The notes under the pieces: generated by a model
Seen by the model: only the letters and a program-made list of their open reading frames with translations
Databases searched by the model: none
What the model was told of the DNA's origin: nothing
Shown: positions 7,205-32,024 of the stretch, one piece after another
Layout: every line of letters starts with the position of its first letter
How positions within the stretch are numbered: the first letter of the stretch is position 1
Translations under genes and position numbers: made by a program
Assembly (NCBI GenBank): GCA_014773175.1
Contig: VXCM01002542.1
Coordinates: 1-64,000, forward strand
Direction: 5' to 3'
Origin: Lucifuga dentata
Lineage: Eukaryota > Chordata > Actinopteri > Ophidiiformes > Bythitidae
Length of the DNA stretch: 64,000 nucleotides

Positions 7205-7205
<1 letters not shown>

Positions 7206-7327
7206 TCTTTTCTGGTGTGGTTTCATTTTCTTTGCTTGCTGGTGCTTCCTGTAGATCTGGCAGGTTGGCGAAGTCGTCCTGTTCAGCCAGTCCAATTGCT
7301 AGAGACAAAACAACCATCTTCCCCTCG
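7205..7327 (-). CDS. syt7: Synaptotagmin-7 linker exon 4 (last exon in window), partial gene
   Basis: A 123-bp internal exon (41 codons, phase 2 to phase 2) bounded by acceptor TGTCCAG and donor GTAATG. It encodes EGKMVVLSLAIGLAEQDDF followed by ANLPDLQ and an acidic/basic tail ending TPEK. The mammalian SYT7 long linker has the closely similar EGRMVVLSLVLGLSEQDDF and ANIPDLQ (from memory). The codon split with the preceding exon is TT+C, giving Phe where mammals have Leu. An in-frame stop straight after the donor confirms an exon edge. SYT7 is a membrane-anchored Ca2+ sensor for asynchronous release and lysosome exocytosis; this exon lies in the variable linker before C2A. The donor is abutted by a (GA)n repeat, which may influence inclusion. 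Confidence 0.9.
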
Positions 7328-9876
7328 CTGGACACAGAAAAACAAGAAAAACAAAACAAGCACAAGCACACAGATAAACAGGCACAAGCACAGACACAGA
7401 CATAGACACGCACAAGTACAAAAGAGAGTTGGGAGAGGCACAACCGATCAGTCCATTGTAATGCATCCCTACTGTGAATGCACACTTGTAAGCTGTGGAG
7501 TGAAATTTGGTGCACTTTGATCGTTATAAAACAGACTTCATTAAACTAATATTCTTAATGAGTCAGCCTTGGATCATGAGAAGTCTGAAACATCCAATAG
7601 ATAGTTTATCTTTGTAATTTATTGTGAACAATATGTATAATAGAGTGAGTGACAGTGGCTTTATAATGTATTAGTGAACAATTTCTGTTTGCTTATTTTT
7701 TTTTTTATAAAAGCTACTTCAATGCATTATACAGATGGTAGCCATAGCACACATAAACAAAATTCGTTAACAAGATTTGGTTCATTAAGGCATTATCAGC
7801 AATGAGGTTCAGAATTAATGATACATTCACAGCTTTATACTGCATGAATAGTCTGATTCAAAGAAAAATAATATTGGACAAATACTGCAGAAAAAATTGA
7901 AATGTTAAAAAAAAGGAACAGAAGTACCTGACATATGTACATGTATTAAAAAAAATAAGAGGTAAACAAGAAAGAGGAGTAAAAGCAAAACCAAGCCATG
8001 AAAATTGAGATGAAATGAATTAAAACCAGCAGAAAATAAACGTATCCTGTTGGTTTTCTGCCTTTATTTTCCTCTCAACACGCCTGAAGTCATTTAAATT
8101 AAGTGTTACTGCAGAATGTTGCACTGTGAATTCAAGAGACCATACAAGCAGTGACCTGTACAAATAAACATTTGGCCACAAACTGATATTGGTTCTGGCT
8201 ATGGATGCACGCATACACATACGCACACATGCATGCACAGCATGCTCCTCGGGGTCTTGGCCACTCTACTTTAAATTACTTGCAGCTGTAAAGCAGTAAG
8301 GTCAGTAATTCTATTCTGGCTTCTTACACGCTTCATCATACACTTCATCACACTCTTCATCGTGCTCTTTTTCCTCTTTATCTGGCTTCTTACATATTAG
8401 CAGTGCTTCAAGGACAATCTCTTTTCTTGCACGACTAAAGGACATTTCCAGCCTGATAGGAGTTTTTGCTCATTTCCTGCATTCCATTTATTTTAAAGCA
8501 ACATTATAGAAAATGTTCTTTAATTTTCCATTTCATTTTGTGTACTATAGCTGACTAAAGTGTAGTTTGAGTGCTGGCTTTACCAGATTGTGACTGACAG
8601 AAGGTCATGGAAAACATTATTATTTGGCTGACAGTCAGAGATGAGAAATGGGAAGATGCTTTGCAGTATAACTGAATTTTTGCCTCAAAACAAGCTGTGA
8701 AATGAACTCTTTTCAAAATGTAAAGCATTAAATCTGATTATAGCGCTTTGATGAGACTAAGAGGTAGGATAAACTGTATTGACAAACGTATATATTTTTA
8801 CAGGCTATTGTAAATATAAGCATTTATCTTCAAATATAAAAGCACAGTTACTCTGTTTAATCTTAATGTATTCCTCATGCTGACTGTATTGCTCAAACAG
8901 CTGTAATTTTTTATTTGTATTGTAAAATTACAACAAATGCAAAAGAGCATTACCTGATTCATTGTAGATCATGCTTTTTTTGCAAGTTGTGTAATTTTTA
9001 TCTGCACAACTCAATTGTTCCTCCTCAGTTTGCTTCTGATTTGTTTGCCTATGATGAGTTTGCTTTCTCTTTCTTCTGTATTCTATCCGCCTCCATCACT
9101 CTCACTTCTGATTATTTTTCCAGCCAGAACGTCATTTTAGCTTGAGTATTTTCTCTTGTAGCACAATTCCTCCTCAACAAAGCGTTGTTTGTTGAAGCAA
9201 TATCAATGACAAGAGGAAATCACTTGAGAGATGGTGCTCATGGGGATGTGTAAATAGCCCATTGATAAGTTGAATGGATTTGTATAGATGACCACAAAAG
9301 ACCTGTGTATTCCAACTGAGAGCGGTAAAATCATTAGCACCTACACTAGTTCTATTGATCGGAAATTTGAACAGCTCAGTTCAGTTACCATACTGTGCGA
9401 CAAGCTGGGTGATATGAAACTGCTGGATAACAGACAGCTTTGGGTTGTTCATATCCCACTGATCAAAAATGCATGAAACAGTATTCCCACTCGCCACTGT
9501 GCACCACCCCAGGGTGAACAACTGACACATTTGGCCCAGTGAGATTCATGAGGACAGGGAGAATGGGTAAGGCTACTCCCTACATATCCGTCCAACCTCA
9601 TTAGAATGATGATTCATGTGGGGAGGGAGGTCACAGGGCCAGAGACATTGTTACAGGGAAGACATGCAAAAGCAGAGGAGGGTAGAGTTGAGAGTGTGTA
9701 TGCTTGTGTGTTGGTGGTCAGGAGAGGCGACCGTTTACGAGAGGCGGCTTTGTAGAGTGCAACCTCTGTAATCCATCACTCAGCTCAAGTGGCGGAGGAG
9801 ATCCCTCCATGCTCCTTATCTCAAATTATCAGTAGCCTTTCCCAACTACAATGCTATGCAGTACAGGGTGAATCGG

Positions 9877-9910
9877 AAAATCGCTGGCCATCAAATCTGC
9901 CAGCGATTTT
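9877..9910. repeat. Perfect inverted repeat (12-bp arms, 10-nt loop)
   Basis: Arms AAAATCGCTGGC and GCCAGCGATTTT around CATCAAATCT. Confidence 0.85.
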
Positions 9911-10099
9911 GAACTTGTCTAGCTGTAGGGAGGAATAAATATTTCTCTTGAACTCTGCAGTTTCAGGTTAAGGTTACTGATGTGAATATTTTTATGTGTT
10001 GCTGTGGGTTTCTTTATTTGTTTCTATTGAGCTCATTGGAAAAACTGCATTATCAAGAGAGATAGCAGATCCAGTCAGTCAAAATACTGCAGTCTAAGT

Positions 10100-10286
10100 G
10101 CGTGAAAATGTGCCTTCTGCAATCATGTGTAGGTGATAGCATTAACACCTTAACATTTGATTTTGTACCATCAGAGAATTTGGCAAAATAACACAAAAAA
10201 TAGAAAGAGAATGGTTGGCAGTAATGTAACATGTATACATGTAGTATTTTTGGGGCTCAAACAAAATCACTGGTGTGCTCCTTTAA
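10100..10286. mobile_element. TTAA-flanked element, copy C (right-end fragment)
   Basis: It shares 'acatttgatttt', 'ggcagtaatgtaacatgta' and 'ggggctcaaac' with copies A and B. It ends 'gctcctttaa' with TTAA at 10283-10286. The left terminal repeat was not found, so it is a fragment or a short internal-deletion copy. Confidence 0.55.
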
Positions 10287-11415
10287 TGCTTCCTCCACAC
10301 TGATGGCACTAACTCATCAAGAACGGATAATATTTGGACACAATAATGTGAGCAATTGTTAATGTGTGTATTGTAACATTGTTGACTGAACACAATAGTG
10401 ACCAAATTACCTACTTTTCTCCAAACAGCTTCTATATATCTTAGACCACGAAGGCTTTACGTGTGCTAAATGTGATGGTTTTACGAGACAGTAGGTATAT
10501 GAAAGAAGATGAAACACCACAAACTACACACTGAATCAATATCTAGCTGACACAGTCTCAACAAAAATTTAACATTATAAGATTCTCAAGAAAGATATTA
10601 CGTTTATTGAAGAGTTATTGTGTTATATTTTTGTGTTCACATTACTATGGCCACCAGCTATACTAACAACCTTTCCAACAAATTAATGAGAATACCTAAA
10701 AATAAGATGAGGAAGTAGCAAATATCATCAGAATATTATGCACACTCTACCACCTCTAATCAAAAGTGGAAAGTAAACTAATACATTTAACATGTATTGT
10801 ACATAAGTATGGTACATAAGTACAATGTTGAGGTGCTTGTACTTTACTGGAATCTTTCCATTTTGTGCTATTTTCGACTTCTACTCAACTATATTTTAGA
10901 GGGACTCACTACATTTATCTGATGGCTGTAGTTGTTATTGTACATTGCAGATTCAGACTACATTCAAAATGAGATAAGATCAGAAAATGTTGCCATTTTC
11001 CGGTAAAAAAAAAAAAAAACCTTTTAGATCAACCTTATTTAGCTTGATCACACCAATGCAATTTAGACAAGAGGCCTGACATTCATTATTGATGCACTAA
11101 CATGTACAGAATACACATCAGTACATCACTAATTTAATAATTTAACACAATGGCCATTCTTCACTATGAGAACCTTTACTTTGGATATTTGAGTAGAATG
11201 TACCACTGGTACATAATCACATTTGTTTAAATTCAGTTTTGAATGCTGGCCCTTTTCTTCTAATGCAGTATATTCCCATCATGGTATTAGTACTTTTACT
11301 GAAGTAAAGGATTTCAGTTCTTTATCCACTGACAATAAGTCACTCCACAGTGTCATTCATGTCACGGTAATCCTGATGCAACATTTTATAGAGCAGAAAA
11401 TATCATAACACTTAC

Positions 11416-11830
11416 AAGAATGACTTGACATCCAGACCTCTGTTGCGGATCTGTTCCATCATGTGGTCCCAGCTGCCTGGATTAGACCTTGATCTTCCAG
11501 CCCCTGCCCCTCTGGACCGGGAAGCTCCAGCCGGACTCCCCCGGACCCCACGCGGGCCCCCACGGTGGCCTCCACCTCCTGGGCCTGTGTGCAGTTGGCC
11601 CAGGCTCTGTGATGTGACTGGGGGGTCNACGGTGGCCTCCACCTCCTGGGCCTGTGTGCAGTTGGCCCAGGCTCTGTGATGTGACTGGGGGGTCGTTGGG
11701 ACCCGGTGGGGGCTGGTGAGTGAGGGGCTGTTGGAGGCTCTGCTGCCGGACCAGAGGCCGAGGACGAGCAACGGCCGAAGATGGAATGTGCTCCAAGGTG
11801 GAAGCTGATGACAGCGAAGTGTCCCCAAAA
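11416..11830 (-). CDS. syt7: Synaptotagmin-7 linker exon 3, split by an assembly duplication
   Basis: The acceptor is TTTTGCTCAG before 11830 and the donor GTAAGT after 11416. The 5' part reads FGDTSLSSASTLEHIPSS then RPRPLVRQQSLQQPL and TSQSLGQLHTG. The 3' part reads GRSRSNPGSWDHMMEQIR then NRGLDVKSF. Mammalian SYT7 has NFEDSTLSTATTLESIPSS, MRQQSLQQPL, TSQSLGQL and GRSRSNPGSWDHVVGQIR in this order (from memory). The raw 415 bp is not open in one frame because 66 bp (11562-11627) are repeated after an N at 11628. Removing 67 bp leaves 348 bp, 116 codons, phase 2 to 2, continuously open. The codon joining the previous exon is AA+T, restoring SN-FGD as in SN-FED. The sequence is GC-rich, Gly/Pro/Arg-rich, basic and probably disordered. 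Confidence 0.92.
11562..11694. repeat. 66-bp direct duplication around N 11628 (assembly artefact)
   Basis: 11562-11627 and 11629-11694 are identical and separated by one N. Collapsing them restores the syt7 reading frame. Confidence 0.92.
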
Positions 11831-13329
11831 CTGAGCAAAACACCAAAGAAAGACATGAATAAAAAGCCCTGAAAGCATCATAAAAAAAATAAATATGAGA
11901 TATAAGGGGGCAGCTATACTTTGAGAGGAAAAGGGTACGTATTTAAAAAAGGTAGAAAACAAAGTATAAAACAATGATATAGCAATGCAATATCATGCTG
12001 ATATAAAAATGTAGAAATGATAAAATGGCAAAAGAGAGATGAAAAGCTATAGAATACTGTAAAATACATAAAACTAAATAACCATTTCTCACAAGTTTTA
12101 ACTGACTTTATTAATGGTTAATGAAGGATTCATTAATGCTTTAATGACAAGTAATAAGCCACTGCTTGTGAAAAATTACTTTAAAGGGTCAAGAGTCTCT
12201 TTTTTGATAACCCATTTGATTTGCAGTTATTGTAGTAACTCACTGCTAACAATTTTTCCACCACAATACTCCATACACTGTGCAGTGTTAAATATTAATA
12301 AGCTGTTCATAAATTGATTTTGGTTCTGTTGCTCTGCTGTCTTTTCTAGAAAGTAAGAGGTCAAACTGTCAGATGGAAGGTCTTCCTGATGAATTGAAGA
12401 GCCAAAAGACAAAGCAAGAGACATATGCTGGAGCCAAAGGAAAGTTTAGAATTTGGCCACCAAAAGTTTTCTGAATTGTTTCTTATTGGACATTAATAAA
12501 TAAGTTATTAACCATTAATAACACCACTACTTACAACTTGCATCCCCTTCATAAAGTATGCCTTGTACTGGTACTGAAACTGTATATATTGTGTTGTGAT
12601 GAACCATAAACATTACATTGTTAGTCTCTGACCTGGTGCTGTAAACACACTTCCTCCTTAAGTGGAATTAAATCCAAACTGGAGTTAAAAGTGTCTGTAT
12701 CATTTAGTCTGCAGCACTGGATTCCTTCTGGGCACTATCAGTCTCCCTGATTAGCCTCAACCCACTTCTCCTTATCTCACCTTTGCTTCCATCAGTCTCC
12801 TGCTATGATTTCTCCTCCCTTTACCTTTGTGCTTCTGAACTCAACTGCTCTCCTTCTCATCTGTCTATTCATCTTTTCTTCACCCTTTGGTTCAGCCCTA
12901 ACATAAATCTACCTCCACACCGCCTCCATTTTCTGTTCTTAAAGCCTGCTCTCTAATTACAGGGCTGCTACTCTTACAATCATTTAATAGTGCTTCTCTC
13001 CTTATCCTCCCCTCAATCACTGCCCTGCTGATGACTGTAAGCTTGTACTAAACAGCCTGTCTGAAGCTAATGCCAAGGGGGAGGATTTACTGCTTGGGCT
13101 AAGGGTTGTGTTAGCGGTGCACTTCAGCATCAACACTGCTTTAACTGTATTTGGGAGCCAGGAGACAACCCCCACCCCCTGGATCAAATAAATACAAGAC
13201 AGAGTTCACATACCTGCATATTTGTGCGCAAACACACACAGTACACCTCAGATTGCACATATTAGATTTTTCTGAGGATTAGCTTTGATCAGAATCATAG
13301 AATCAACATCAATTGTGCATAATTACTTC

Positions 13330-13500
13330 CCCCAAGGAGGCAATGTACTGGTTAGCAGGATTACTCAAAAAATGATGAACCAATTCTGGCTAAACTTGGT
13401 GGAACGGTGTAGCATGGTCTTGGAAAGACTCCATTAAATTTTGGCTCCAATTTGGAACTGTATTGTGGAATTATTGAGTGAGAGTGGGAGAGAGGGCTTT
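13330..13500 (+). repeat. Dispersed repeat fragment ('gttagcaggattactcaaaaa')
   Basis: The text 'tagcaggattactcaaaa..atgaaccaattctggctaaacttggtgg' resembles a widespread fish repeat whose members carry 'agcaggattactcaaaaagttatgg'. Family and boundaries are not determined. Confidence 0.45.
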
Positions 13501-13699
13501 TTTAAAAATATATATACTTATGTCAATTTTTTCAAAAGTAATACACCAATCTGAATTAAAAAAAAAAAAAAANAAAAAAAAAAAAAAAAGAAAGAAAACA
13601 GGTACGTCTATCCCATGATAGACTATCAAGAGTGGCATTATGGTCCAAATCTGGATTTTAAAAAAACAAACAAAAAAACTACCATTTCTTTCATTGTCA

Positions 13700-13700
<1 letters not shown>

Positions 13701-13739
<39 letters not shown>
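13701..13739. repeat. (ATT)n microsatellite
   Basis: Thirteen ATT units directly left of the MITE at 13759. Confidence 0.9.
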
Positions 13740-13758
13740 GTAGTTTCTTTCTCGTTAG

Positions 13759-14081
13759 TACAGAGCCCCAGAGGGGACATTAGTGAAAAAAAATATAAGA
13801 TGTAGCCACAACTTAGTAATGCATGGCCACAAGCTATTAAGTTGTGGTCATACCTGAGTATCACATGGCCACGCAATACTTAACACGTGGCCATGTGATA
13901 CTAATGCATGGCTACAAGATATTTAAAGTGTGGCCACGAGATACTACAGCATGCTTTAAGTATCTTGTGGCCACACTTTAGTATCTTGTGGCCACGCTTT
14001 AAGTATCTCAAGGCCACACATTACTAAGTCATGGCCACGCCTTATATTTTTTTCCACAAATGTCACCCCAGGGGCTCTGTA
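13759..14081. mobile_element. MITE with TACAGAGCCCC termini and internal GTGGCCAC palindromes
   Basis: The left end TACAGAGCCCC and right end GGGGCTCTGTA are perfect 11-bp inverted repeats with further similarity inside (GGGGACA against GGGGTGACA in inverted sense). The flanks are the same 6 bases, CGTTAG, at 13753-13758 and 14082-14087, consistent with a target-site duplication. The interior is about eleven blocks of TGGCCAC or its reverse, spaced 20-30 bp and joined by 'agtatct' or 'taagtat' segments in alternating orientation. There is no coding potential. The superfamily is uncertain. Confidence 0.8.
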
Positions 14082-15258
14082 CGTTAGACCAGCATTTTAT
14101 TAGAAAACAAATCTTGTCTAAGCTTGCTCTAACGAGTGCCCTTCTAGTTTAACATACAAACTACTGGACTAAAAAAAGAGATTTAATGAATAAAGTGCTG
14201 TTGCTGTATTTCTATTGGGCACTGGCGTTATTAGGAATGTGTCAGAATTCCTGTTTATATGTGGCATGTCGTTTCAGTTTGACAAGGTCACTTGTGAAAA
14301 GGCTTTTATATTTTTTCCTCCACATGATATATTGCTCCTCTGGTTAAAAAAAAAAAAAAAAAAAANAAAAAAAAAAAAAAAAAAACACTTAGGCTTACAA
14401 TGTACCTTGAGGAACTGTATGATTGAGGTGGGATGAAATGTAAAGAAAAATCATAGGAAATGAATGAAAGCGATAGCAACACATTATCAAGAAACAATAG
14501 ACATCTATGCATTTTAATGCAACACTCCAGCTACAGTCAAGTGTAAATATGAATAATAAATAAAGGTCTAGTGAACAAAGCACTACTTTGCACATTATTT
14601 CTTGGTCAAACAAACATTTTTTTTTTTTTTATCATAACTGACATCATGATAAATCAATACATGTGGCTGGATTCATGATGGCATTGGGCCAGATATCTGG
14701 GAGCTACTCCATGTGCTAATAAATTCTCCCAGTCTGTTCTGTGTCATAAATTTGGCAAAGGATTTATTCAGATGAAAATTTGTTCTCCAACACATAGGCT
14801 CTCATTGCTGTAAGTTCTTCCACACGTTTTATCTACATCTGCTCACAAATAAATGCTGTATATTCAAATTCATCTTTATCACCTTCTCCACTTGCAATGT
14901 ACTGTGCCCTGGCCTTTTTATCTGCTCTATCCTGTTACTGAAACTTTTTTAATTTCCCGAAAGACAATTAAAATTACTATAAGCATTGAATGGTTTTGTA
15001 ATTAAAGAAAACTCAAGAGAGGTGGAAGGATACATGGGCAGAGTAAGAAACAAATAGCAACAATGAAGAATGAAAGATGAAGTGAGAGAGAGGGCGGAGG
15101 TGGTGGTGAGAAAAACAGACATGATTGGCCAAAAATAGAAACCAATTCCAGAGGAGGAATGGAAACACTGGTACATCTGAAAGGGTGAGTTAAAAGGGGG
15201 GAAATAGAGGAGTGATGGATCCTAGAAGAGAAGAACTTATAACTTTCAAGTCCACATT

Positions 15259-15273
15259 ATCAAATAATGCATC
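15259..15273 (+). repeat. Target-site duplication of RTE-like LINE, left copy
   Basis: ATCAAATAATGCATC, identical to 16130-16144. Confidence 0.9.
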
Positions 15274-16129
15274 TTCTTCTTTTCCTTTCGGCTTTCCCTT
15301 CAGGGGTCACCACAGCGAATCATCTGCCTCCATCTAACCCTATCCTCTGCCTCCTCTTCTCTCACACCAACTAACTTCATGTCCTCTTTCACTACATCCA
15401 TAAATCTCCTCTTTGGTCTTCCTCTAGGCCTCCTGCCTGGCAGTTCCAACCTCAGCATCCTTCTACCGATATGTTCACTATCCCTCCTCTGTACATGTCC
15501 AAACCATCTCAGTCTGGCCTCTCTGACTTTATCTCCAAAACATCTAACATGCGCTGTCCCTCTGATGTACTCGTTCCTGATCCTATCCATCCTCGTCACT
15601 CCCAAAGAGAACCTCAGCATTTTAGTCTCTGCTACCTCTAGCTCTGCCTCCTGTCTTTTCCTCAGTGCCACTGTCTCTAAGCCATACAACATCGCTGGTC
15701 TCACCACCGTTTTGTACACCTTTCCTTTCATTCTTGCCGAGACTCTTTTGTCACACATCACACCTGACACTTTTCTCCACCCATTCCAACCTGCTTGCAC
15801 ACGTTTCTTCACCTCTTTTCCACACTCTCCATTGCTCTGGACTGTGGACCCTAAGTACTTAAAATCCTCCACCTTCTTTATCTCTATTCCCTGTAACCTC
15901 ACCATTCCACTTGAGTCCCTCTCATTCACAGCCATGTATTCTGTCTTGCTGCGGCTAACCTTCATTCCTCTCCTTTCCAGGGCATATCTCCACCTCTCTA
16001 GGTTTTCCTCCACCTGCTCCCTGCTCTCACTACAGATCACAATGTCATCTGCAAACATCATAGTCCAAGGGGATTCTTGTCTAACCTCATCTGTCAACCT
16101 GTCCATCACTACAGCCAATAATAATAATA
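15274..16129 (-). mobile_element. 5'-truncated RTE-like LINE insertion with perfect TSD
   Basis: The element lies between two copies of a 15-bp duplication and carries the 3' part of a reverse transcriptase gene on the minus strand. The 3' end is A/G-rich (GGAAAAGAAGAAG). At the 5' junction there is an (ATT)n-like stretch (16117-16130) that could be filler or target sequence. The perfect TSD and uninterrupted ORF indicate a young insertion. It sits in a syt7 intron in the sense orientation. Clade assignment to RTE-like is from the protein style, not a phylogeny. Confidence 0.9.
15300..16118 (-). CDS. Reverse transcriptase C-terminal part (non-LTR retrotransposon)
   Basis: A 272-residue open frame without internal stops. 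It begins just upstream of the RT catalytic motif (MMFADDIVIC, FADD codons at 16044-16055). It then reads FKYLGSTVQSNG (RT thumb region of RTE-like LINEs), a connection region with RMDRIRNEYIRGTA, and a C-terminal LRWFGHVQRR..GRRPRGRPKRRF basic segment before the stop. The endonuclease and the RT fingers and palm before FADD are missing, so the protein cannot be functional. The start codon is arbitrary because the element is 5' truncated. Copies of this family are abundant in fish genomes (established knowledge). The opposite strand carries a 270-codon shadow ORF. Confidence 0.9.
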   Translation of the reverse strand: MAVVMDRLTDEVRQESPWTMMFADDIVICSESREQVEENLERWRYALERRGMKVSRSKTEYMAVNERDSSGMVRLQGIEIKKVEDFKYLGSTVQSNGECGKEVKKRVQAGWNGWRKVSGVMCDKRVSARMKGKVYKTVVRPAMLYGLETVALRKRQEAELEVAETKMLRFSLGVTRMDRIRNEYIRGTAHVRCFGDKVREARLRWFGHVQRRDSEHIGRRMLRLELPGRRPRGRPKRRFMDVVKEDMKLVGVREEEAEDRVRWRQMIRCGDP

Positions 16130-16144
16130 ATCAAATAATGCATC
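16130..16144 (+). repeat. Target-site duplication of RTE-like LINE, right copy
   Basis: ATCAAATAATGCATC, identical to 15259-15273. Confidence 0.9.
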
Positions 16145-17492
16145 ATGAATCTAATTCTCATTCTGTTTTGCAAAAACTGAAAGCCTGCTAATTTTCAGAT
16201 TGAATTTCTCAAGCAGGGACCAATGACTCATTCATTATTTGTGTAAACAATTTATAATATCTGAAGTCCAAACAAGAGGTAAATATTAAGTAATATATAT
16301 ATATATATTCCTAACTAGTTTCCACATAACCAATCACAATATCAAAGCAAGAATGAATGAATAAATAAACAAATGAATGAATGAATGAGTGAAGGAAGGA
16401 ATTTGTGGTTCTATGAGCAACTTTGTATCTGTAACCTAAACTGGAACATTATTACAGTGTAAACAAATCATTCAGGAAACCCAGTGCAAAACATTGTTTG
16501 GTTATCTAGGGTACAATGTATGTACAGGCATTATTCATTGGGTCTCTCCAATGTGCTACTGATATACAACAATGAAGTGAGAAAAATTATTTCAAGCACC
16601 GGAAGATTACAGGAGTAAAAGTTTGATTCATTTTCTGCATTGATGATATGTGACTGGTGGTTGGAGCATTTTGAGGTTTGGATGAATGTGAATCTCTCCC
16701 AGCTGAACATTTGCATAATATATGAATAACTGCTTTGAAAATAATGGTTCAAAGTTAAAGGCTGAGTGAATAACGAGAAAAGTTAACTTTTGCTCCCAAG
16801 ATGCTTTGCAGTAACACTGCAGAAACATCCAGTAATTTAAATTTTGGTTCAGCATACAGGTAGTGCTGAAGGTAGAGTAGAACTCTTTACAATCTATTTG
16901 CTTTGACATTCTAGATCACTTCTGAATCAATTTCTTACTTGCTACAACTGTGATTTGTGGATCTGTTCTGCATGTTAATCATAGTAACAGCCACTGAGGG
17001 GCTCATGAGTATTGTACTATTGAGAACCGTCCAGCAAACTAACTTGAAGGAACAAATTTTGAAATATTTTCAGCTAATGGCCATAACATAACCCTATTGC
17101 ATCACTAAATTATCCTAGAGGTGAAGAACAAGGAGGGTTAAATTTAAAGGGGGGCTCCACCAATATTAAATTCTGTTTACTGGTCTTAGGAGCCCTATTG
17201 AGCATGTGTAATCGACTGTATGAAGGCTTTTGTGGTTGTAGAGGGACTGTGCAAAGTCAGGGAAACTGACCTCTATGACATCACAAGGGTGCTGATACTA
17301 AAGACATCAGTTTTGAAAATCAAAGTCTCTTCTAAGAGTTGGGTATGTTGAATTCACTATAAAGGTCATGGAGAAGTTTTATTTTTCAAACTTGTAGTCT
17401 ACTATAACTTGAAAAATAGACTATAAAGCCAGACTACAAGTCCTGTGCTAGTGTCTAGAAGGCTGAAGTTAAGTCGATGGACTGGAAAAAAA

Positions 17493-18020
17493 GCTTGAAA
17501 ACGTTTCGCCATTCATCCAAAAGGCTTCTTCAGTTCTAATTGTTGCAATAACAGGTTATAGTTTACTCCAAAAAGGCGGAATGTGGCCATGACAGTTTTG
17601 TCCCACTGGGACGTGGTTGAGTCCAGGTACGTTCTGTACTGAACCATGCTCACATCACCATCAGCCCTGTGTAGGTGCTGTAATCTGTTACTGTGTTTTT
17701 TCTATTGGGTGAGGAAGAGAGACAATGATTGTAATTCCTTCCCTGACCTGGGCCAAAATTATGCCAGACCTTTACTGTACTTAATGTCTCCCTTTCGTCC
17801 TTACATCTGTGGTGGGGTGGGAGTGGTTTGGGGAAATGCCACCCCACAGCCGTTAGGGCAACATTGCAAATGACAAATGATGTCTCAACCCTCCTCCCCT
17901 GTTTAAGGAAGGTTTATCCAGTTTGACATAAATGGCCTCTTTTACAATCCTCTCAAGCCATCTGTCCTCTGTCTAAAATACAGACATTCTGCTCCTCAAA
18001 GCTGTATTTCTTACATTTGT
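17493..18020 (-). pseudogene. Penelope-like retroelement 3' fragment (GIY-YIG endonuclease remnant)
   Basis: On the minus strand, about 18015 down to 17875, the translation reads FEEQNVCILD, then after a frameshift WLERIVKEAIYVKLDKPS and LNRGGGLRHHLS. This matches the conserved 'EDRWFERGVKEAIYV..PSLNRGGGLRHHLSP' block that follows the GIY-YIG endonuclease in fish Penelope-like elements (from memory). The downstream part (17540-17493) is the familiar fish repeat 'gaagcc..ttggatga..ggcgaaacgt..tcaagc'. The fragment is frameshifted and dead. The exact 5' end is unclear. Confidence 0.65.
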
Positions 18021-18025
18021 CTAAA

Positions 18026-18039
18026 GCAGGGGTCGCCAA
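18026..18039 (+). other. hAT-like terminal sequence CAGGGGTCGCCAAC
   Basis: CAGGGGTCGCCAAC resembles the terminal inverted repeat of many hAT elements. No matching right end was found in the next 500 bases, so this is a fragment or a coincidence. Confidence 0.3.
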
Positions 18040-20340: not shown

Positions 20341-21366
20341 TTTCTAAATCTCAGGACATGGTCTCCCAACTGCTGAAAGACATTGGGGCTTTGGTATACT
20401 AAATGTGAGTCTTCAGCCAGTTGTTTACTTCCATTGTCTGTCATGTCATGCTGGTTAGGTAGCCTACAAACAACATGTGAGAGCTTGTTCACTGGCAGCA
20501 GCTGCCCACAATAAGAGCCACAGGGATTCAACCATGTGGACTAGTGAACAAAACAATCGAAGCATAAACAGACAATCACTACAACAACTAAATCTAAGTT
20601 ATTATTGTTTTCTGATGCTGGTAAAGGTTTGGAAAATGGGGTCTTATTCAAAGAAGCAGATTTATCAAACTATCTGGATAACTTTGCTGTGTAACACTCA
20701 GAATGCCCATGTTCCAGATTTGAGAGGGTTACAGGTTCTAGTTGTCCAGATAACTTGGTAAAGTTACTTCTTGGAATAGAAAGGAACACAAAAATACTGG
20801 CAGCTCATTGGATATGGTGACACACAGCGCCAACCTGGATGAAATTCAGTAGCATTTGTTCAAGTTGCCAAAATATTTCATGTTTAATATTGGCCTACGA
20901 ATACTGTTCAAATGCTCTTTACAACACACTTTGAGTGAACACAGCTGTTACTCTAAATGAACAAACAAACTATTTTTGTAAAATTCTGTCAGCTTGTTTT
21001 GTTTGAAACTCTTGAAACTGTCACAGCTCTCAGTAAATTAGAGGAGTCTGAGAATCTGTGGTGATTAATTTTTTCTAAAACTGTCTTGATATCAGCAGGT
21101 GGAGGGGAAGTCGCTTATGTAAAAATGGCATTTGTTTCAAAGTGAGGATGCTCTCAGGAGTCAAGAGCCTTTAACCAGCAGCTCTTCATGCATCACGGAG
21201 CATTGTAATGCCAAAGAACAGCTGGTCTCTCATTCAGCCTTTCCGTAAACGCAACAGTGCTATTCGTAATGCCTTTAGAAGCTCATACTCATTGATATCC
21301 ACACCATACAATTGTTGTGCCTACCGCTGCCCCCCCATGCGTGCCCCCTGTCCCCATGCCACTCAC

Positions 21367-21567
21367 TTGCTGCACCGTAGACCTCCGGCATGCAAGTGGC
21401 TCTGGACCGTCTGCCACCTCCCAGTCTTGGTGCCCCCTGTTATCATGCTTCGAATGCTGTCACTGCGACTCGGCCCTGCCCCAGTCCCAGACCCAGCACC
21501 ACCCCCGCACTCACTGGCCCCCGGTGAGGGTACAGCACCACCCTGCCCACCCTTATCCACAGCCCCA
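21367..21567 (-). CDS. syt7: Synaptotagmin-7 linker exon 2
   Basis: A 201-bp exon (67 codons, phase 2 to 2). The acceptor is CATTCCTCCCAG before 21567 and the donor GTGAGT after 21367. The translation starts GAVDKGGQGG, passes through a Gly/Ser/Ala-rich stretch, and ends GRWQTVQSHLHAGGLRCS plus a split AA. Mammalian SYT7 has GRWRTVQSHLAAGKLNLS N at this point (from memory). The acceptor was chosen because AA+T joins the previous exon as Asn-Gly, matching the mammalian LN-GT junction. An upstream poly-U tract ending in TAC has no AG. The Gly/Ser-rich N-terminal half is poorly conserved and probably disordered. The next exon continues SN-FGD. Confidence 0.9.
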
Positions 21568-21810
21568 CTGGGAGGAATGGTGGGGTCATCGTAGACAGAA
21601 AAATAAAACGAACAGACAGAGAAAAAGACGACCAACAGACGATACAGAGTGAGAGAGAGAGAGATGGAGAGACGGACAGAGAAAGAGTCGGAGAGCAAAA
21701 ATTATTATTAGTAAGGTTAGTCAAACCAATGAATAACCTGTCAAGTCAGACACTTCACAGAGTGTCAGTCCAGCCACAGGCGTCCAACACAAAGACACCT
21801 GGAACGCAGC

Positions 21811-21843
21811 TTACTATCTCACTGCTGGTCAGTGAGATAGTAA
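21811..21843. repeat. Perfect 14-bp inverted repeat flanking Harbinger element
   Basis: TTACTATCTCACTG, loop CTGGT, CAGTGAGATAGTAA. Its last three bases are the TAA duplicated by the element at 21844. Confidence 0.95.
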
Positions 21844-22634
21844 GGCCGGATTAACATGACAAGCGTTGAGCGTTGCGCTGACCTGGGCGTTCCATTATTG
21901 TGTATTGGGAGCTGAGCGGTGACTCCTAACGTCGCATCACATCACCTTGAGTGCTGCGTGACGCTCAGATTCTCCGTTTTGACACGGTGCTCAAAGTTCA
22001 GTTAAATGAACTCAATGTTCATTTAAATGAACTTTGACCTTTCCAACGCTGACCTTTCCAACACGCAACCAATCAGAGCACTGCTGTACGTCATGTAACT
22101 AGAAGCGCCACAACAATGGAGGAGAAGCTTGTAATCTGCAGAGTATACAACACAACTTTAAAATTGTATCATGATCTGGTAAAAAAAAAAAAAAAAAAAA
22201 NAAAAAAAAAAAAAAAAAAAGAAAAAAGAAAAAAAAGCCGCTTGCATGGCAAAATGTCAGCAGTCAGAGAGGGAAAGAGGGACATCAGGTTTGGAAATTG
22301 TTAATATGTCTGCACTGTGAGGTTTCATGCACGCATGTTTGCTGTTTTTTTGCTTTTCTTCTCCTAATAAGAAGAGCATTTTTGTTTTTTGTGATGTCCA
22401 TACTGCTACCTGAGTCGAAACTGAAATCCGATTTTAACTACGAATGTGCAAAGATTGCATCTAGGCTACATCCTGTCTTTACAGTCCATGGTAACCGTTA
22501 AATTGTCATTAGCAACGAGTGCTTCCTATCAGTGCGAGGCTGAGCGGTGCTGCTCAGATTCTGCTCATGTGCAAGCAGAATGCTGAACACCCAAGTAAGC
22601 GGCAACGCTCAACGCTTGTCATGTGAATCCGGCC
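21844..22634 (+). mobile_element. PIF-Harbinger-like DNA transposon with TAA target duplication
   Basis: The left end GGCCGGATTAACATGACAAG continues CGTTGAGCGTTGC. The reverse complement of the right end is the same for 33 bases with one difference (AAC against CAC). TAA flanks both sides (21841-21843 and 22635-22637), the 3-bp TWA duplication typical of PIF-Harbinger. Inside, ATG at about 22116 opens MEEKLVICRVYNTTLKLYHDL, which looks like the start of a Myb/MADF-type Harbinger accessory protein, before a poly-A contig join at 22201. Most of the coding region is missing, so the copy is non-autonomous. The N could hide unassembled sequence. Confidence 0.85.
22116..22178 (+). pseudogene. Start of Harbinger Myb/MADF-like protein (remnant)
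   Basis: About 21 codons from an ATG in good context (aacaATGgag): MEEKLVICRV then YNTTLKLYHDL. It runs into a poly-A tract with an N. A helix-rich start with a MEEKL/VYN pattern is typical of the MADF domain protein partnering Harbinger transposase (family knowledge); nothing downstream supports a longer frame. Confidence 0.4.
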
Positions 22635-24472
22635 TAAGTAAGGTGAGTTTCCTTCTTCTGTGAAAGCTTGACTTACAGACAACATAACTTAAAATAAGAA
22701 CTGTAGCATTACTCAGGGCTATACAAACTTAATGGTGAATGGATTACTTTAATTCATTTACTGACACATTTCTAATGACCAGTTCACAAAAAACTTTTTT
22801 TTTGAGGAACTTTAATTCATCTGCTATGGGGAACTTTCAGTTATTGAAGTTCAACAGACCACAAAAAAAAAAAAAAAAAAAANAAAAAAAAAAAACTCTT
22901 TTTTTTTAGAAATGCTTGGTTATGAGTTTCAAGAAAAATAAGGTCTGCTCCCCATTTTGCTGCACCCAGCAGAAAGCAGTGATCAGTTTGCTGGTGAAGT
23001 GAACTGGGTGTAATGACTAAATGATGCAAATGTGGCATCCTTAGATTTTAAGAATGCAATGATAGATGCAATTGTTAGGAGAACACTAACCATGTTTATA
23101 ATCTCAGTGAATTGGCAGTTGTTTATAATGACAACAAATACGTAGAGGTGCACATAAGTAGCCTGCTTTTACGCATCCCCTTAAATAAAAAGTGTCTCAT
23201 CTCTCCCATAATCACATTTTTGCTATACCAAGTAGCTGCAACCAAAAGACAACAAACTTTTTAAAACTTTTTGGTGATATTTAATATTTGAAACATATTT
23301 CTCTACGACTCTAAAAACAGATATGTTCTCACAAGGGGAGTGGGGCATAGTGGCCAGCCCCTTTTTTTCACTGTTTGAAAGCATATGTGTGGGAGGTGTA
23401 GTCAAGTTAAAAGGGGTGTTAAGTTGTCTTTTAAGCACTGGACTGAAAAAATTATGTGCACCGCTGCAAACACACTTATATCATATAAACTTGCACTTGT
23501 AAAGTGTTTAAAATGTTTTCATAAGATTTTTTCATTGTAAAAGCATGTAGTTTTCAATTATTATGAGCACACACAATGATTTTAAATAATTTCTCTATTA
23601 TTTCTCATCATGCCACCAGGCCCACCCTAGGTAAAGTGCACTTAGATGTTACAGAGTCGACTTCGGACAGCACTTTGACATCACTACAGGGACCCTTCAC
23701 TCCGTGAGGACAGACCAAACAAGACACAGCTGCACACAGGACAATATCTTCAACAACATACTCACAATCACATTTAGAAACAGACTGGTCTGAAGTTACA
23801 GTAACTGGAATGAGTTTTCATTGCCCACTGACTCTCCAGTTACAGTATTTTACTGTTTTATTATACAGGGTCGAAACTCCTTTATTTGCACTATAAAAGC
23901 ATTGTTATTCCAAAATTAACCCGTGAGAAAGTTGACTTATTGATCTGTTATCACACTTTTTCACAAAGCCACTTGTATTACTAGGCCTATTAAAACCCAC
24001 TCAAGCCTGAAAAATTACACCAATTGCTTAATACCTACCTTACCTAACTACCTAATACAATGTAATCACAACAATCACTGTAATTTCTAACCTCATCTTC
24101 AAATCATGCTGCTATCACAGTATTTTCAACATCACTGCACAGATATAGAATAATTGATTGTGCTGTGGTTTTAAGAGTCAAGTGAGTTCTAATTTGAGAG
24201 GATTAAAGGGAACAGGTTCAGTTACAGCCTCAGTGACACGTGTAATGCATCTCAATTACAGCATGAAAACATACGTGATGAATAGTGTGTCTATTTTGAA
24301 GCAGGGCTCAGCAGATGAGACCCAGGTGGACTATGAAGCTGCCTTATAGCAGTTGAGATACAATGAGTGATAGTGTGAGCAGTGATAACGAACAGGCAGA
24401 AACACAAAGCGAGTGGAGGAAGGGTGACACATAACATATCTAAACACACACAAAAAACATGACAACAGTGAA

Positions 24473-24573
24473 AATGAAGAGAACAGAAAAAAAAAAAACC
24501 CATTGCACCAAACCTTCAAAGGTNAATGAAGAGAACAGAAAAAAAAAAACCCATTGCACCAAACCTTCAAAGG
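24473..24573. repeat. Direct duplication around N 24524 (assembly artefact)
   Basis: A copy of about 50 bp ('aatgaagagaacag..cttcaaaggt') occurs on both sides of N 24524 and differs only in the length of a poly-A run. Confidence 0.9.
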
Positions 24574-26111
24574 TAAAAACAGTCAGCCTTCTGTGATAAA
24601 CCAAACTGAACATCAGAGATAGCGAGTCAATGCTGGTTGCCTCAGAAGCAGATTTAAATATCGGGACTCAATGACTGGTTTTGTTTAAAGGGGAAACTGT
24701 TTAGGTGAAACACACAGATCTGCTCTCTGAGGGTTGTCTGTCTCCATGGTAACAGTCCATGGGTTGCAGGTGAGAGTGAAAAAGGCCTGACAAGGGTGGG
24801 GATATTAAACCATTCAGTTGTACACTCTCTTCACTATGGAAAAGAAAAGTAAAATCTTGTTTCCTAAATTGTTTTGTGACCAATTAATCTCTGTTACAGT
24901 TTTGACTGTAACAACCTGATAAGACTCAAAGACAGGGTCTTAAAGTGACAGTCCCCTCAGTATGTCTCTGTTCAGCACTCACCCCTTGATGGCCTGGAAG
25001 GTGACTTTAAAAAGTTTGTTGATTCCTGACTGGTAGAGAACAGCAACTTCAATTCTGTCAGTTTCAGTGGATTACAATGGTGAGTGTTTTTTTCTGCAGC
25101 AATAATAAAGAAAACATCTACAGAATCATCTAAATCAATCCTGTAATATAATCCACTTCTCCATCTGTTTTAATGGTATGTTCCAAATATTGATAATTTC
25201 ACCAGTGTGTCACTAAATACGCCACTTCTGGCAAAAGTTTGGATCTTTCAGGAAAGCAATAGTGCCACATGGAAGCTGTTTGTGATATTTCCATGAAATG
25301 ATTGAAATGTTCTAAGTAAATGGATGGACAGAGGAGAAGTGAATTATACTACAAGATTGCTTTGAGAAGAACAATTTACAGCTTGGGGTATCACAATACC
25401 TTTTATGTACTGTATCTTATATTCCCTGAAAATTTTAGAAACCAGTTTAAATTTTCCTTTTGGATGTCTCAAGTAATTTCTCATTAATGAGGGCAGAACC
25501 AAACAGTGTCATTGTATTTAAGAGGGATCCTTTGGAAAATGGTTGAGATTTCTGTCAAGGTCAGGGCAGTCCTAGGAATCACAATATTGAGGGATGGTGG
25601 TGCACATCTCTATCTGCTGCTGCATGGCCAGCAGTGCATACTAAACACCAGCTAGCTGTGGACATGCCTGAATGCAAAGACATGAGGATTACCAGGGATG
25701 AGAGCAGACTTCGCTCAAAAGATATTGCCAGAGTGTGACAAAACTAGACTTTCTGCAACCCCCTTAGGGCATTTAATTTGACCTTTACACTGTTCAGATT
25801 GTTGTGCCCCTTTTATTTGGGGCATCTATTTTACATATTTTAAACAGCACAAGGATTTTTTTTCCTGTTACTAAATAGGTGCTTACATATGTAAAATAGC
25901 CATCTAGCTACTGGACACTTAAAATCACAAAATTTGTGTGCATTACCAAACTCGTACATGCAAAAGCCTTTAAATTATCTTCAATTTAGATATTTACAAT
26001 TTTTATCGCATCAACCAGTCACAGAGTTATGAAGAATAGAAAGGATTTAGTAAGGCACATACAGCCCTGCCCAGATAGAGGGGTCCCTTACCAGCCAGGA
26101 CTGAGACTCAC

Positions 26112-26246
26112 TTGGGCGTGAGGCGAGGGTCTCCATAGGGAGCATAGGGAGACATATTTAAGAGGAACTCCTTGGGTGGATAGGAGCTCCATCTCTGTTG
26201 CACATTGCTGCTGTCATTGTTATTCCAAAAGTCTCTGTCTAGCTCA
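26112..26246 (-). CDS. syt7: Synaptotagmin-7 linker exon 1
   Basis: A 135-bp exon (45 codons, phase 2 to 2). The acceptor is CTCTGATAACAG before 26246 and the donor GTGAGT after 26112. It encodes ELDRDFWNNNDSSNVQQRWS then SYPPKEFLLNMSPYAPYGDP and RLTP. This is the most conserved block of the long SYT7 linker; the mammalian form is DLDRDFWNNNESTVQQKWS..SYPPKEFILNISPYAPYGDPRLSL (from memory), and the match is what identifies the gene beyond doubt. Asn from the split codon AA+T joins exon 27049-27128 (KAI-N). Its strong conservation in an otherwise fast-evolving linker suggests a binding or folding role; that role is not visible from sequence. Confidence 0.96.
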
Positions 26247-27048
26247 CTGTTATCAGAGAGAAAGGAAAAGACAGGTAAAAACAGTAAACAGCCACAGTCA
26301 TCCTCCATGAAACAACATGACGGATGAGAGAGAAGTCTTGAGAAAAAAGGTTAAAGAAAAATCACCTTAAAAAAGAAAATTTATAATATTGCCTCAGAAA
26401 TGCAAAGGTCAAGGAGAGAGTTTTAATAAATAGAAGAAATGTCAGAAATGCCAATAAAGTTACCACTATGGTAGAACTTTGCACAATTTTATAAAAAGAG
26501 ATATTAGATACATTTGTTAATTTAAAAAAAAAAAAGGTCAGTTCCACAGGAAATTATCAACATGGGTTAAAGATGTCCAAAAACCTGACAGCATGATGAG
26601 ATGGTGCCTGATTACAAAACAACCACAAATAACCACAATAGAAGAATAAGAATTTAGCTGCACAGGCTATCACTCTGTCAGGGATTAGTTACCAAACAAG
26701 ACATAGCTAATTGAAAAATCAGTACTGTATTTTAAAATAAACCTATATTGGGCGTAAAAAAGTACTTTTTAACCATTGGCGAAGAAACTATACATCACAA
26801 ATTTACTTTTAAATGCCCTTAGATCTGCTATATTCTATCCTGAAGGGTTACATCTGATTGCCAATAAAGACAAAATATAATATGTATATCAATTCAGGCC
26901 AGGCATTTCAGGCAAGATTAGCTTTCCAATCAGAAGTGAATGCAACCAGGAAAAATAAACCAGTTAAAGTGTGATCCTATCACCACGACATGGCTAATTT
27001 CCATGTGCCTCCATCTAGGCCTTTCCTCAGCCAGCGCCTGACACATAC
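26247..27048 (-). other. Short syt7 intron (802 bp)
   Basis: Donor GTATGT and acceptor CTCTGATAACAG. AT-rich with a poly-A run at 26523-26535; no other feature seen. Confidence 0.85.
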
Positions 27049-27128
27049 TTGATGGCCTTATTTTCCCCTCGACCTCTCACAGAATCTGGAGAGCTGGCAG
27101 CCTCCACCCCAGGCTTATTCCTCTTCCC
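27049..27128 (-). CDS. syt7: Synaptotagmin-7 juxtamembrane exon
   Basis: An 80-bp exon, phase 0 to phase 2. The acceptor is CTCTTTACAG before 27128 and the donor GTATGT after 27049. It encodes GKRNKPGVEAASSPDSVRGR then GENKAI plus a split codon. Mammalian SYT7 has [20 protein letters not shown] then SEKKAIK, the same length (27 residues including the split codon). It follows the membrane anchor directly: the TM exon ends QRKL in phase 0 and this exon begins GKR, rebuilding the QRKLGKR stop-transfer motif. It is probably constitutive, because skipping it would shift the frame into the phase 2 cassette exons. Confidence 0.95.
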
Positions 27129-27513
27129 CTGTAAAGAGATAGAGAGTGAAAGAGAGAGAGTGAGAGTGATAGGAAAGGGTGTCTTAGAGCCATGTTTTCA
27201 TCATCATTTACAAAAACATCTTTACAAGTAAAGTGCTCAATATAAAAGGTTTAGAATGGAGTCAGGTTCCAAACATGTTGTAAAATATGATAAATGAGAG
27301 AAAAGTGACAATTTGGTTGGATGCCAAGACTACAACCTGCTTCTGAAGATCAAAACGTGACCAGGGACCACTTAACTAATGAGATGCAAAAACACACTGA
27401 CACTCACTCACTGGCTTATACACACACATGCATGGCATATGCATGCACACATGTTCATGCATAAACAAAACAAGATCACACAATTAATATGCCAAGCAAT
27501 GAGTAAGGCTTAC

Positions 27514-27578
27514 AGCAGATACTGAAAGCATCAGATATGATGCTTTCAGTATCTGCTGAAAGCATCAGATATGATAAT
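27514..27578. repeat. Perfect 19-bp inverted repeat plus a third partial copy
   Basis: AGCAGATACTGAAAGCATC, loop AGATAT, then its exact reverse complement (27539-27557). 'tgaaagcatcagatatgat' follows again at 27557-27575 in direct orientation. Confidence 0.95.
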
Positions 27579-30500
27579 GTTATACATATTGGAGGCATCT
27601 ACAAAATGTGAATACATTTCAGAATTCTACTAAAGCATTTATAGCTGGAATTTTGGGGAAAATAAAAAAGGGAAAAGAAAAATACAACAATTAAGATAAA
27701 ATAAGTGAAATGTCTTCATTTTAATTGGCCAAAAGCCAAAAAGGTTGGAAACCACAGGTTTTAACTAGACAATAAAGACTAAGCACATCCATCAAAACAC
27801 TAACACAAATATTTTCATTTATTTTAGCAGAATCTCAGGACTGCGTAGGCATTTACAGATGTTGTATGACTGACATCTCCATAATTCTTCTGATGGATTT
27901 GTTTCACATGGTAGGGTGGTGCAACTTACATCTTTATGATTATTACATTATTATGTACATGGCATTTGGCAAACTCCTTGGCAAACCCATGGAAGATCTG
28001 AATACAAAGATAATGACTAAGGAAATAATCAAATATTCAAGGAAAACACTTGACCTGAACCCGGTTTGAAATCATAGGAAACGATTTCAAGTGATGTCTC
28101 ATTTCAGAATTTATCTCTGTGAAGTGCTCTGCAAATGGAGAAATTTCATTCCAACATTTGCCATCAGGGGCTACCCATAAAACCTTGCAAGCAGCTCAAG
28201 AAAAATGAACTGTAGAGAGGGCAGTAATGCAGCATTACACTGGATGTAATATGCTATTATAGATCACAAGAAGAAGGGAAATGATTACCCTCCATACCTC
28301 CATCATTGGTTTTTATATGCAGTGCCCATTTCTGCTGTGAATTCCTGTTGTGATTTTTGTGAGGGTCACTATAAAATTAGGTCAAGGGTTTTATTTCTAT
28401 GCATAGTTGAAGGGGTTAAGTAATGTCATCTGGCCCACTGAGTAGACTTCAATGTTCAGCGATTAACCATCTTCTCTGTGTGTTTGCTGTGGCACCATTT
28501 CAGGAAACATCATGAAGCCTCCAGATGAGGCTCTGACAGTTTGATTTGCTGAGCTTGTGCAGACTGGCTTCATTATTCATGGCAATGCTTCCACCACTTT
28601 TTATATAACAAAACAAATCCTGACTATATTAGCTGCAGTTATTTACTTCAGTAGATAGTGTAAAATGATAGTGTGACAAAATAGGATTCTAAGATCCTTT
28701 GAGTAATCATGAAATTTTACACTTGACATTGATCTACGTGAAAACTATATTATGAATATTTTAAATATGAATAGAACCCCGTGGAAAGGTCCCAAGAGGG
28801 ATCTGAGGAAAACATCGAGTGTTACAGTGGACATGGAACCTGGAGAACATATGAAGGGTCTTGGTTGAACTTCTATCAAAACCTCTGGGGGGATTATGTA
28901 CTGTGCAAAGGGAAAGATGTAAACCAGAAGCATGGGTTATGTATTCTCCTTTGTTGAAGATGAAGTTTTCTGTGTGGTTCTATTTTCTAGTACATGGATT
29001 GCTACCTTTTTATGCAATGGCCTGCTCATTGTCTTTTAGTTTAAAAATACCCGCATCCTTGAAAGATAAAAGCAAGCTTGATTATTTTTTATTTATACAT
29101 GACTGCCTTTAACAGAGGATGTTTTTGAGTGAGTGAGTGATTTGGTAACTGCTTGATGCTGAACATGATGATGAATACAGTGCAGCACCAATAATGGATT
29201 GTGAGCAGCCTGCAGTCTGAAAACCTGTTTCACAAGAGGCTTTCTGATACACTATAATGCTCAATGTTTATCTGAATGCAGCATTCAGTCTCCTTACAGA
29301 CAGGTGGCCGCTAGGTTTCTACTGCATAAGTTATAGCTTACGTCTGAGGCATCAACCATAAACGTGATTATTTATCACATCTTGGCTCATATGTCCTGCT
29401 TGGTACAAACATTTTTCAACAGAGAGCAAAGCTTGGGGCCTGAACTGACCTGTACCTACCTTCATCCACTACACTGTAAACACACATAGACAAACACACA
29501 CTCACACAGGGCAGAAACATATTAGAAACAGGAGCTCAGAGAAGGATAGATTTCTAGCAGTCAAGAATATGCTATCGAGTGCAGCTCATCTATCATTAAA
29601 CATGATCATAAAATCTTCAGGAGGCTGGAGAGGAGTCAGAACAGGGAGAGAAGGTACAATATTGAGAGAGGAGAAGTGGATGGAAATGAGTAACTATGGT
29701 AAAAAAAAAAAAAAAAAACNAAAAAAAAAAAAAAAAAACCAGACAGGTGGGGAAGAGAAGAACATCTGGGTACATCAATGGAGTAGAGGTGCAAGTAAGA
29801 ATGCGAGAGCAACAAGAAAGAGGGGGTTTGACGCAGAATCCAGAATTCTGATGGAGAAATAGAGTAGGTGTGAACAGCAAGTCAGGATGTCACATGCGAT
29901 GAATGCAGGATGTGAGAGGGACAGAAGGGAAGATGAGCGGAGGAGAAGAGCTTTGTGAGACGAGGATATTCTCCCAAGTCCTGCTGTCATTCTGTCTGAC
30001 ACACCTGGATGTTCAACTGTAACAATCATCACCTTCCTCTTCCTCCCTGCCTGCTTCTCCTTCTCCCTTTCTCAGTTCAATACTTCCCTTCTTCTACCCT
30101 CATCTACTCCTCCTACTCTCCTCCCCTCCCCTCCCACAAAACAACCAATGGCATGAGACCTGTTTCTGACGTCTTCATCTCCCCCCGGCATAGATGCGCA
30201 TTTTTACTGGTTGTGAATGTAACATTCATATTTCAGTGACTGATCAGAGGAAATTACTTAGTTATCACTTGAATATCTTAAATACATAAAACCACACTTT
30301 ATTGACCTTTTTAATGTAAATACCCGCATATTGCACCTTTTACATTCACCCTTTGGAATGTGGTACATAATGGTGGGTTGAGGCAAAGATAATGATATGG
30401 AAGACTTTAAAAAAGTGACAAGGGCAATAAAGGGGAAACCACAGTGGCAGCAGAGGGGAGGGATAAAAGAAATCAGTGACACTGACAAGGACACGCAGAT

Positions 30501-30725
30501 AAAGTCACAAAGGAGCAAATACAAACAAGACCATTCTGTATATAAGTGACAAATATAAAGACATGAGGTAAAACAAAGATAAGTAACGAGTGATGGGATA
30601 ATATGTTCATCATTTAGTGAGCTTTGTTACTGCACAGTCATGGTTTTAAGAATCATTTAGCATACTTTGTAAATCTGGTAAGAGACTGTAAAAGTAAAGG
30701 TAAATGTTACTTTTTCACTCTGCTT

Positions 30726-30752
<27 letters not shown>
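30726..30752. repeat. (GA)n microsatellite
   Basis: Thirteen GA units. Confidence 0.9.
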
Positions 30753-30756
<4 letters not shown>

Positions 30757-31920
30757 CAAGAGGGAAGCAAGGATGAGAGGAAAGCAGGCCAGGCTGTCGG
30801 AAAATCCAGCAGATCAAAATGTATAGGAGGAATTACAGTTGCTCCAGCTGCAGCCAGCAGCTCTGACTGATGCTCATTAGCATATGAATCATTAGCATGG
30901 CACTGAAGGCTGGAGGCAAGCGGCCATGATGCACAGAGCTAAAGGCACACAAAGCCATGTTTACAGAGTGCACTATGCTTTCTGATCCTGTTTGCTGTCA
31001 CGGCCAAACATACAGTATCTGTCTGGATCAGCAAAGCAACATTTAACAACAACACACAGGTCACAAAATCGTTACAGATTCAATTGAAGGTCACAAAACC
31101 ATAAAAAGAAAACATGAAAACATGACTGAACACCAATACTGTGTTGAAATATGTAAGCTGTGTATAAGTATATGGTATAAATAAGCAAAATTCAGAACAA
31201 AAGGGAACAAGCTGTAAAACTTATATCCACACTTAATCATCCAACAGAAGCAGATGATTACTAAACATGAATTATCAACCCTCAAAGACCTAAATGGCTG
31301 CCCATAGCTGAAAATAATCATTGCTCTAAAATATTTAATAACTCTTGAATAGTTTATCAAATCAGACCCTTTAAACCTTCAGCTAAGCCTTTGAATAGTA
31401 TGATGCTTGCCTTACACATTTAGACCCTATAGTCTGCAAAACATTGTCAGTTTCTTCAGCACTGACATTCTCCCACAGAGCAGAGCATACTTGTCACTTT
31501 GAATGAACAAGTTTAGATCTAAATTGAAAGTTTAGATTTTCTTCAATCGTGTCTGCTACAGCAGTAAGTGCCTTTGAATAACAAAATAAGCACAGGAGAG
31601 TCAGGTGCCACAAAATTGCTCTAGAGGGTTACTGTACAAGATGTCTGTGCATGGAAAATACACACAGAATAAGGGTTTCAGCTGTTTTAACTTATTTTGA
31701 GGTGAGTGATGTACTTTAACCCTAATGAGAGATGCGACGTGAAACATTTGCCTTTATCACATATGTGATTCGCTCTAAATCTGGACTAAAGTTTTCCATA
31801 AGTGTTTTCCTTGGTTCAGTTGAGTTGTAATAACTTTATATAAAAAAAAAATCAAACAAAACTACAGTTCTGAAGAATGCATATAGTTATTAAATTTGAA
31901 AAATAAACATTGTCACTTAC

Positions 31921-32024
31921 CAATTTACGTTGACACCAGGTACAGACACCACATAGAGCTACAAGCCAAATGGTGCATACTATCAATGCAATAGAAACCA
32001 GGAATACACTGAGAGACACTGAGC
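31921..32024 (-). CDS. syt7: Synaptotagmin-7 transmembrane exon
   Basis: A 104-bp exon, phase 1 to phase 0. The acceptor is CTCTTTCCCTCAG before 32024 and the donor GTAAGT after 31921. It encodes SVSLSVFLVSIALIV then CTIWLVALCGVCTWCQRKL: one hydrophobic membrane span of about 22-25 residues followed by a Cys-rich juxtamembrane stretch and QRKL. Mammalian SYT7 has LLVSAIITVSLSVTVVLCG LCHWCQRKL (from memory); the CG-C-WCQRKL end is nearly identical and the span has the same length, but the middle of the helix is divergent. The Cys residues at the membrane border are palmitoylation sites in synaptotagmins (family knowledge). The N-terminal luminal exon, which must supply the Met and the first base of the split codon, was not firmly found. 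Confidence 0.93.

Follow-up and report, generated by a model that had tools for sequence, protein, structure and literature searches.

The question raised by this locus is whether a fish synaptotagmin-7 gene carries, between its membrane anchor and its first C2 domain, a run of exons that can be left out or kept in any combination. The window, which comprises bases 1-64000 of contig C2092 (80,036 bases) in a genome assembly of 8,189 contigs, almost certainly contains exons 2 to 7 of teleost synaptotagmin-7b, with the four exons between anchor and C2A forming equal-phase cassettes. The gene lies on the minus strand of the window, where six exons were placed as follows.

32024-31921, minus strand: syt7b exon 2, membrane anchor and CQRKL; 104 bp, phase 1 to 0; from splice sites, frame and a match to residues 11-49 of Nerophis P0001
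27128-27049, minus strand: juxtamembrane exon, GKRNKPG...ENKAI; 80 bp, phase 0 to 2; from splice sites, frame and homology
26246-26112, minus strand: linker cassette 1; 135 bp, phase 2 to 2; skipped in Seriola P0242 relative to P0243
21567-21367, minus strand: linker cassette 2; 201 bp, phase 2 to 2; skipped in Nerophis P0054 relative to P0001
11830-11416, minus strand: linker cassette 3; 415 bp as assembled and 348 bp after merging of a repeat, phase 2 to 2; homologues are without the repeat
7327-7205, minus strand: linker cassette 4; 123 bp, phase 2 to 2; skipped in Oryzias P0255 relative to P0100

All six exons are bounded by AG acceptors and GT donors, and the sequence-only reading that had resolved them as syt7 exons is borne out by splice sites, phases and homology, with E values down to 1e-198 for the six-exon stretch. 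The phases that it had assigned also hold in a check of splice sites and frame, namely 0 to 2 for the juxtamembrane exon and 2 to 2 for the four linker exons (for cassette 3 only once the repeat is merged), and the split codons I-N, N-G and N-F lie at the exon junctions as described. Its lengths of 135, 201 and 123 bp are exact; the fourth, 348 bp, is reached only after merging, the assembled exon measuring 415 bp. Because each cassette has the same phase at both ends, it can be skipped or kept without a frameshift. Mouse Syt7 forms have inserts of 44 and 116 residues, and we take cassette 1 to be the insert of the mammalian beta form.

Contig C2092 begins at window base 1, and exon 1 (MHLNAEEDSSKG, ending in phase 1) lies at C2092:77538-77505, so that the window above 32024 is intron 1. 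The next linker exon was found at C578:173741-173618; it is 124 bp long with phase 2 to 0 and is therefore not frame-neutral. It is followed on C578, down to C578:166448, by the exons of a tandem C2A and C2B, which are 86-97% identical to Nerophis syt7b; C2092 and C578 were joined as one gene by gene order alone and not by sequence. The orthologous anchor and juxtamembrane exons are both present, as expected of synaptotagmin-7 (syt7b).

Conservation was assessed with two homology queries. The first, consisting of the window exons with a human tail and scored on the window part, returned 987 matches (7,987 candidates scored), and the second, a human long form, returned 978 (7,990 scored); the best 120 of each were considered, those of the second being by name from mammals, birds and reptiles. 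The best match to the window exons was syt7b from Nerophis (91% over the whole 330 residues), and the best-listed amniote matches to the human long form include camel X1 (98%). Nerophis ophidion syt7b isoform X1 (P0001) resembles the window in its four cassettes, their order and their junctions, with 91% identity over the stretch, but its cassette 2 is five residues shorter. Camel SYT7 isoform X1 (P0122), an amniote long form, has the same four cassettes and junction residues, although its cassette lengths, deduced from the protein with alignment-based boundaries, are 132, 225, 369 and 123 bp compared with 135, 201, 348 and 123 bp in the window. Public proteins with all four cassettes occur in teleosts and amniotes alike.

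The conservation of cassette boundaries proposed from the letters was recovered when the window protein was aligned with its counterparts from Nerophis, salmon, goldfish, camel, alligator, turtle and lizard: I-N, N-G and N-F are kept in all eight rows, fish and amniote. Among the 269 listed proteins, cassette 1 opens with a split residue that is N in every one of the 223 rows with the motif (113 fish and 110 amniote), and the corresponding residue of cassette 3 is N in 251 of the 252 rows where it was found. The split residue before cassette 4 varies: 45 fish rows have F and 44 have L, and 102 amniote rows have L. Conservation is lowest in cassette 2, with a median identity of 79% in the 50 that have it of the 120 rows listed from the first search, compared with 96-98% for the other three. 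The 330-residue linker protein gave no Pfam match at E values up to 0.1, and the window gave no Rfam match at gathering scores. Weak matches to solved structures (best E value 0.0003) over linker residues 129-177 and 224-307 were set aside, since they probably reflect low-complexity composition.

What had been singled out as notable, the conservation of this arrangement in a fish, does not stand as such: linker exons subject to alternative splicing have already been published for vertebrate Syt7, in a survey covering five fish genera, and for zebrafish syt7a, and four-cassette fish models are public. The text seen of the survey by Craxton (2010; PMC2823689) describes several additional, alternatively spliceable exons between the transmembrane segment and C2A in vertebrate Syt7 and covers Takifugu, Tetraodon, Gasterosteus, Oryzias and Danio. 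For zebrafish syt7a, the portion consulted of a 2024 study (PMC10947677) reports that exons 4-7 are alternatively spliced to give varied linker lengths and that two isoforms were predicted, both of which were confirmed in retina. The four-cassette syt7 linker in fish is thus real, ordinary and already known; it matters little as a discovery and confirms that the syt7 linker exons are conserved in each of the two fish paralogues.

The second paralogue, syt7a, is found in the same genome on contig C2566, with the same exon order from the anchor exon through the last C2B exon; its constitutive linker exon gave a weak match (E value 0.31). It has four cassettes as in syt7b, all multiples of three in length and all phase 2 to 2, measuring 135, 168, 435 (501 as assembled) and 129 bp compared with 135, 201, 348 and 123 bp in syt7b.

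From sequence, the spliceosome would be expected to skip or keep each of the four cassettes with the reading frame intact. Judging from annotated models of relatives, skipping would alter both length and composition of the flexible linker by which the Ca2+-sensing C2 domains are tethered to the membrane. In mammals, according to the sections consulted of a 2025 preprint (PMC12636619), the alpha and beta SYT7 linkers phase-separate and the gamma linker aggregates, short-term plasticity differs, and there are potentially twelve human isoforms; by analogy, fish linker variants may likewise differ in self-association and short-term plasticity.

Models with and without cassettes occur in the annotated sets of other fish. 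In 12 chosen same-species isoform pairs, the linker differences fall on cassette boundaries to within one split codon or shared residue; cassette 1 is skipped in Seriola, 2 in Nerophis, 4 in Oryzias and 3 in Dicentrarchus P0253, which differs in C2B as well; a direct reading of P0241 settled the Entelurus pair. The use of cassettes was then counted by aligning each protein to a long reference, a procedure that was repeated for the fish rows with the same counts. Earlier counts based on BLAST, on motifs and on motifs plus gaps had disagreed, the misjudged rows arising from the low-complexity cassette 2, from narrow motifs and from a gap rule that mistook cassette 4 for cassette 2. The fish set comprises 149 rows (P0001-P0120 and P0241-P0269), these being the best 120 of the first search with 29 added from a third, and the amniote set is P0121-P0240; the labels fish and amniote follow list position (P0051 has no name and P0006 only a scaffold name).

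Writing presence as 1 and absence as 0 for cassettes 1-2-3-4, the 149 listed fish models divide into 1011 (74), 1110 (33), 1111 (19), 1010 (11), 1001 (5), 1101 (3) and one each of 0010, 1100, 0000 and 1000, where P0247 is counted as 1111 although its cassette 3 is identical at only 22 of 55 aligned residues and is partly in another frame. At least ten of the 16 combinations are therefore represented. Four of these rows (P0251, P0260, P0266 and P0269) carry EKKAI and look like syt7a; without them 145 rows and at least nine combinations remain, the sole 0000 row being among the four. The 120 listed amniote rows divide into 1111 (92), 1110 (17), 0111 (6) and 1011 (5).

The sequence-only reading had predicted up to 16 linker lengths, with a maximum of about 269 added residues. 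The maximum is correct at 269 if cassette 3 is taken as 348 bp, and the 16 sums are all different and permitted by the frame; 16 is nevertheless an upper bound, of which ten are seen in the 149 listed fish models and nine once the syt7a-like rows are removed. These counts set no upper bound of their own, because the lists are made up of best-scoring rows, favour long forms and consist mostly of predicted models. We consider it somewhat probable that the cassettes are not freely combined, with the 135 bp exon retained almost every time and no more than a subset of the 16 combinations made. This exon is present in 147 of the 149 listed fish models, and of the eight combinations that omit it two are seen, once each, one of them in the syt7a-like P0251. 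However, each search contributes its 120 best-scoring rows and the first favours long forms, the 135 bp cassette is missing from six of the 120 listed amniote rows, and the short form alpha has none of the inserts.

The assignment of cassette 3 as an intact equal-phase exon depends on how a gap within it is read.

11562-11694, no strand: 66 bp exact repeat around the N at 11628, inside cassette 3; read as an assembly flaw

As assembled, the single N separates two identical 66-base copies, and the exon shifts frame and runs into a stop; with the N and one copy removed it is 348 bp long and open over 116 codons. Taken literally, the assembled letters describe a real 66 bp duplication with a frameshift, so that inclusion of cassette 3 would truncate the protein and only forms without it would work. 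This is very improbable: the N sits exactly between the copies, seven of the 19 single N positions in the window have exact flank overlaps of 60-67 bases, the part of the exon 3' of the N shows a 96% match to Nerophis across 70 residues, and the homologous exon of syt7a also has an N, with a 65-base repeat (this exon is open either way, at 501 bp assembled and 435 bp merged). Since the gap pattern recurs in the window, the repeats that flank the N in cassette 3 of both paralogues look like unmerged contig ends and hence an assembly flaw. A non-functional syt7 copy, for which the frameshift in the assembled cassette 3 would speak, can be set aside as having a negligible chance, given that open frames and GT-AG sites are seen in the remaining five exons and that C2A and C2B exons are found on C578.

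With cassette 3 taken as intact, the locus illustrates that an assembly gap can give a sound exon the appearance of a frameshift, a potential trap for automatic gene models. Part of the cassette 3 region seems to be read in another frame in the Pampus model P0247, and across this region as assembled (11992-11412, minus strand) all three minus frames are open for 131-177 residues. The N positions with 60-67-base repeats (6374, 11628, 33659, 36935, 47118, 52136 and 54642) are probably contig ends left unmerged, and any exon hit by one could be broken; of the 19, ten others show shorter overlaps, 10-19 bases long and in homopolymer-like sequence, and two have no exact overlap.

Comparison of the paralogues also drew attention to one intronic stretch.

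26060-26111, minus strand: shared intron stretch 3' of cassette 1; about 50 nt common to syt7b and syt7a, holding a second donor-like CTGGTAAG

Its copy in syt7a lies on C2566 just below 135567 (L024). The comparison covered 20 intron flanks belonging to 10 exons, scored between syt7b and syt7a and set against sequence shuffled in two-base blocks; the flanks of the four C2 exons were placed at match edges and not at checked splice sites. Only the flank 3' of the 135 bp exon beat 300 of 300 shuffles, and none of a further 5000 was as good (score 34, best shuffle 32). Three other flanks gave p < 0.05, those upstream of the anchor and juxtamembrane exons and downstream of the second C2B exon. As these surround exons counted as constitutive, flank conservation is, by this comparison, no general mark of cassettes; nor is the shared stretch, since none of the remaining seven cassette flanks stands out between syt7b and syt7a.

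The second donor-like site lies 20 nt into the intron in syt7b and 21 nt in syt7a, and an extension of cassette 1 to this site reads TGA immediately (by eye), for which reason it may be a decoy or poison 5' splice site. That the stretch is an old splice-control element setting the use of the beta-type insert is a tentative proposal with the odds against it, and it gives a small, testable starting point for asking how the choice of linker is controlled. RBFOX2 peaks near Syt7 alternative exons are mentioned in the part seen of PMC10676425. TGCATG occurs in syt7b 149 nt downstream of cassette 1 and 174 nt downstream of cassette 2, and three further copies precede the juxtamembrane exon and one the anchor exon. 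Control by RBFOX through this motif was dropped as a candidate, since the window density of 0.48 per kb makes these positions unremarkable and, in syt7a, the 500 nt that follow each of the four cassettes contain no TGCATG.

Intron 1 contains several open frames at 54944-51785 (minus strand), of which 53524-52844 has a sub-threshold reverse transcriptase match and three others that were scanned have no Pfam match. Between cassettes 2 and 3, at 16130-15300 (minus strand), an open frame of 276 residues matches a reverse transcriptase (PF00078, E value 5.8e-10) and is, judged by this match, a LINE-like element in the intron.
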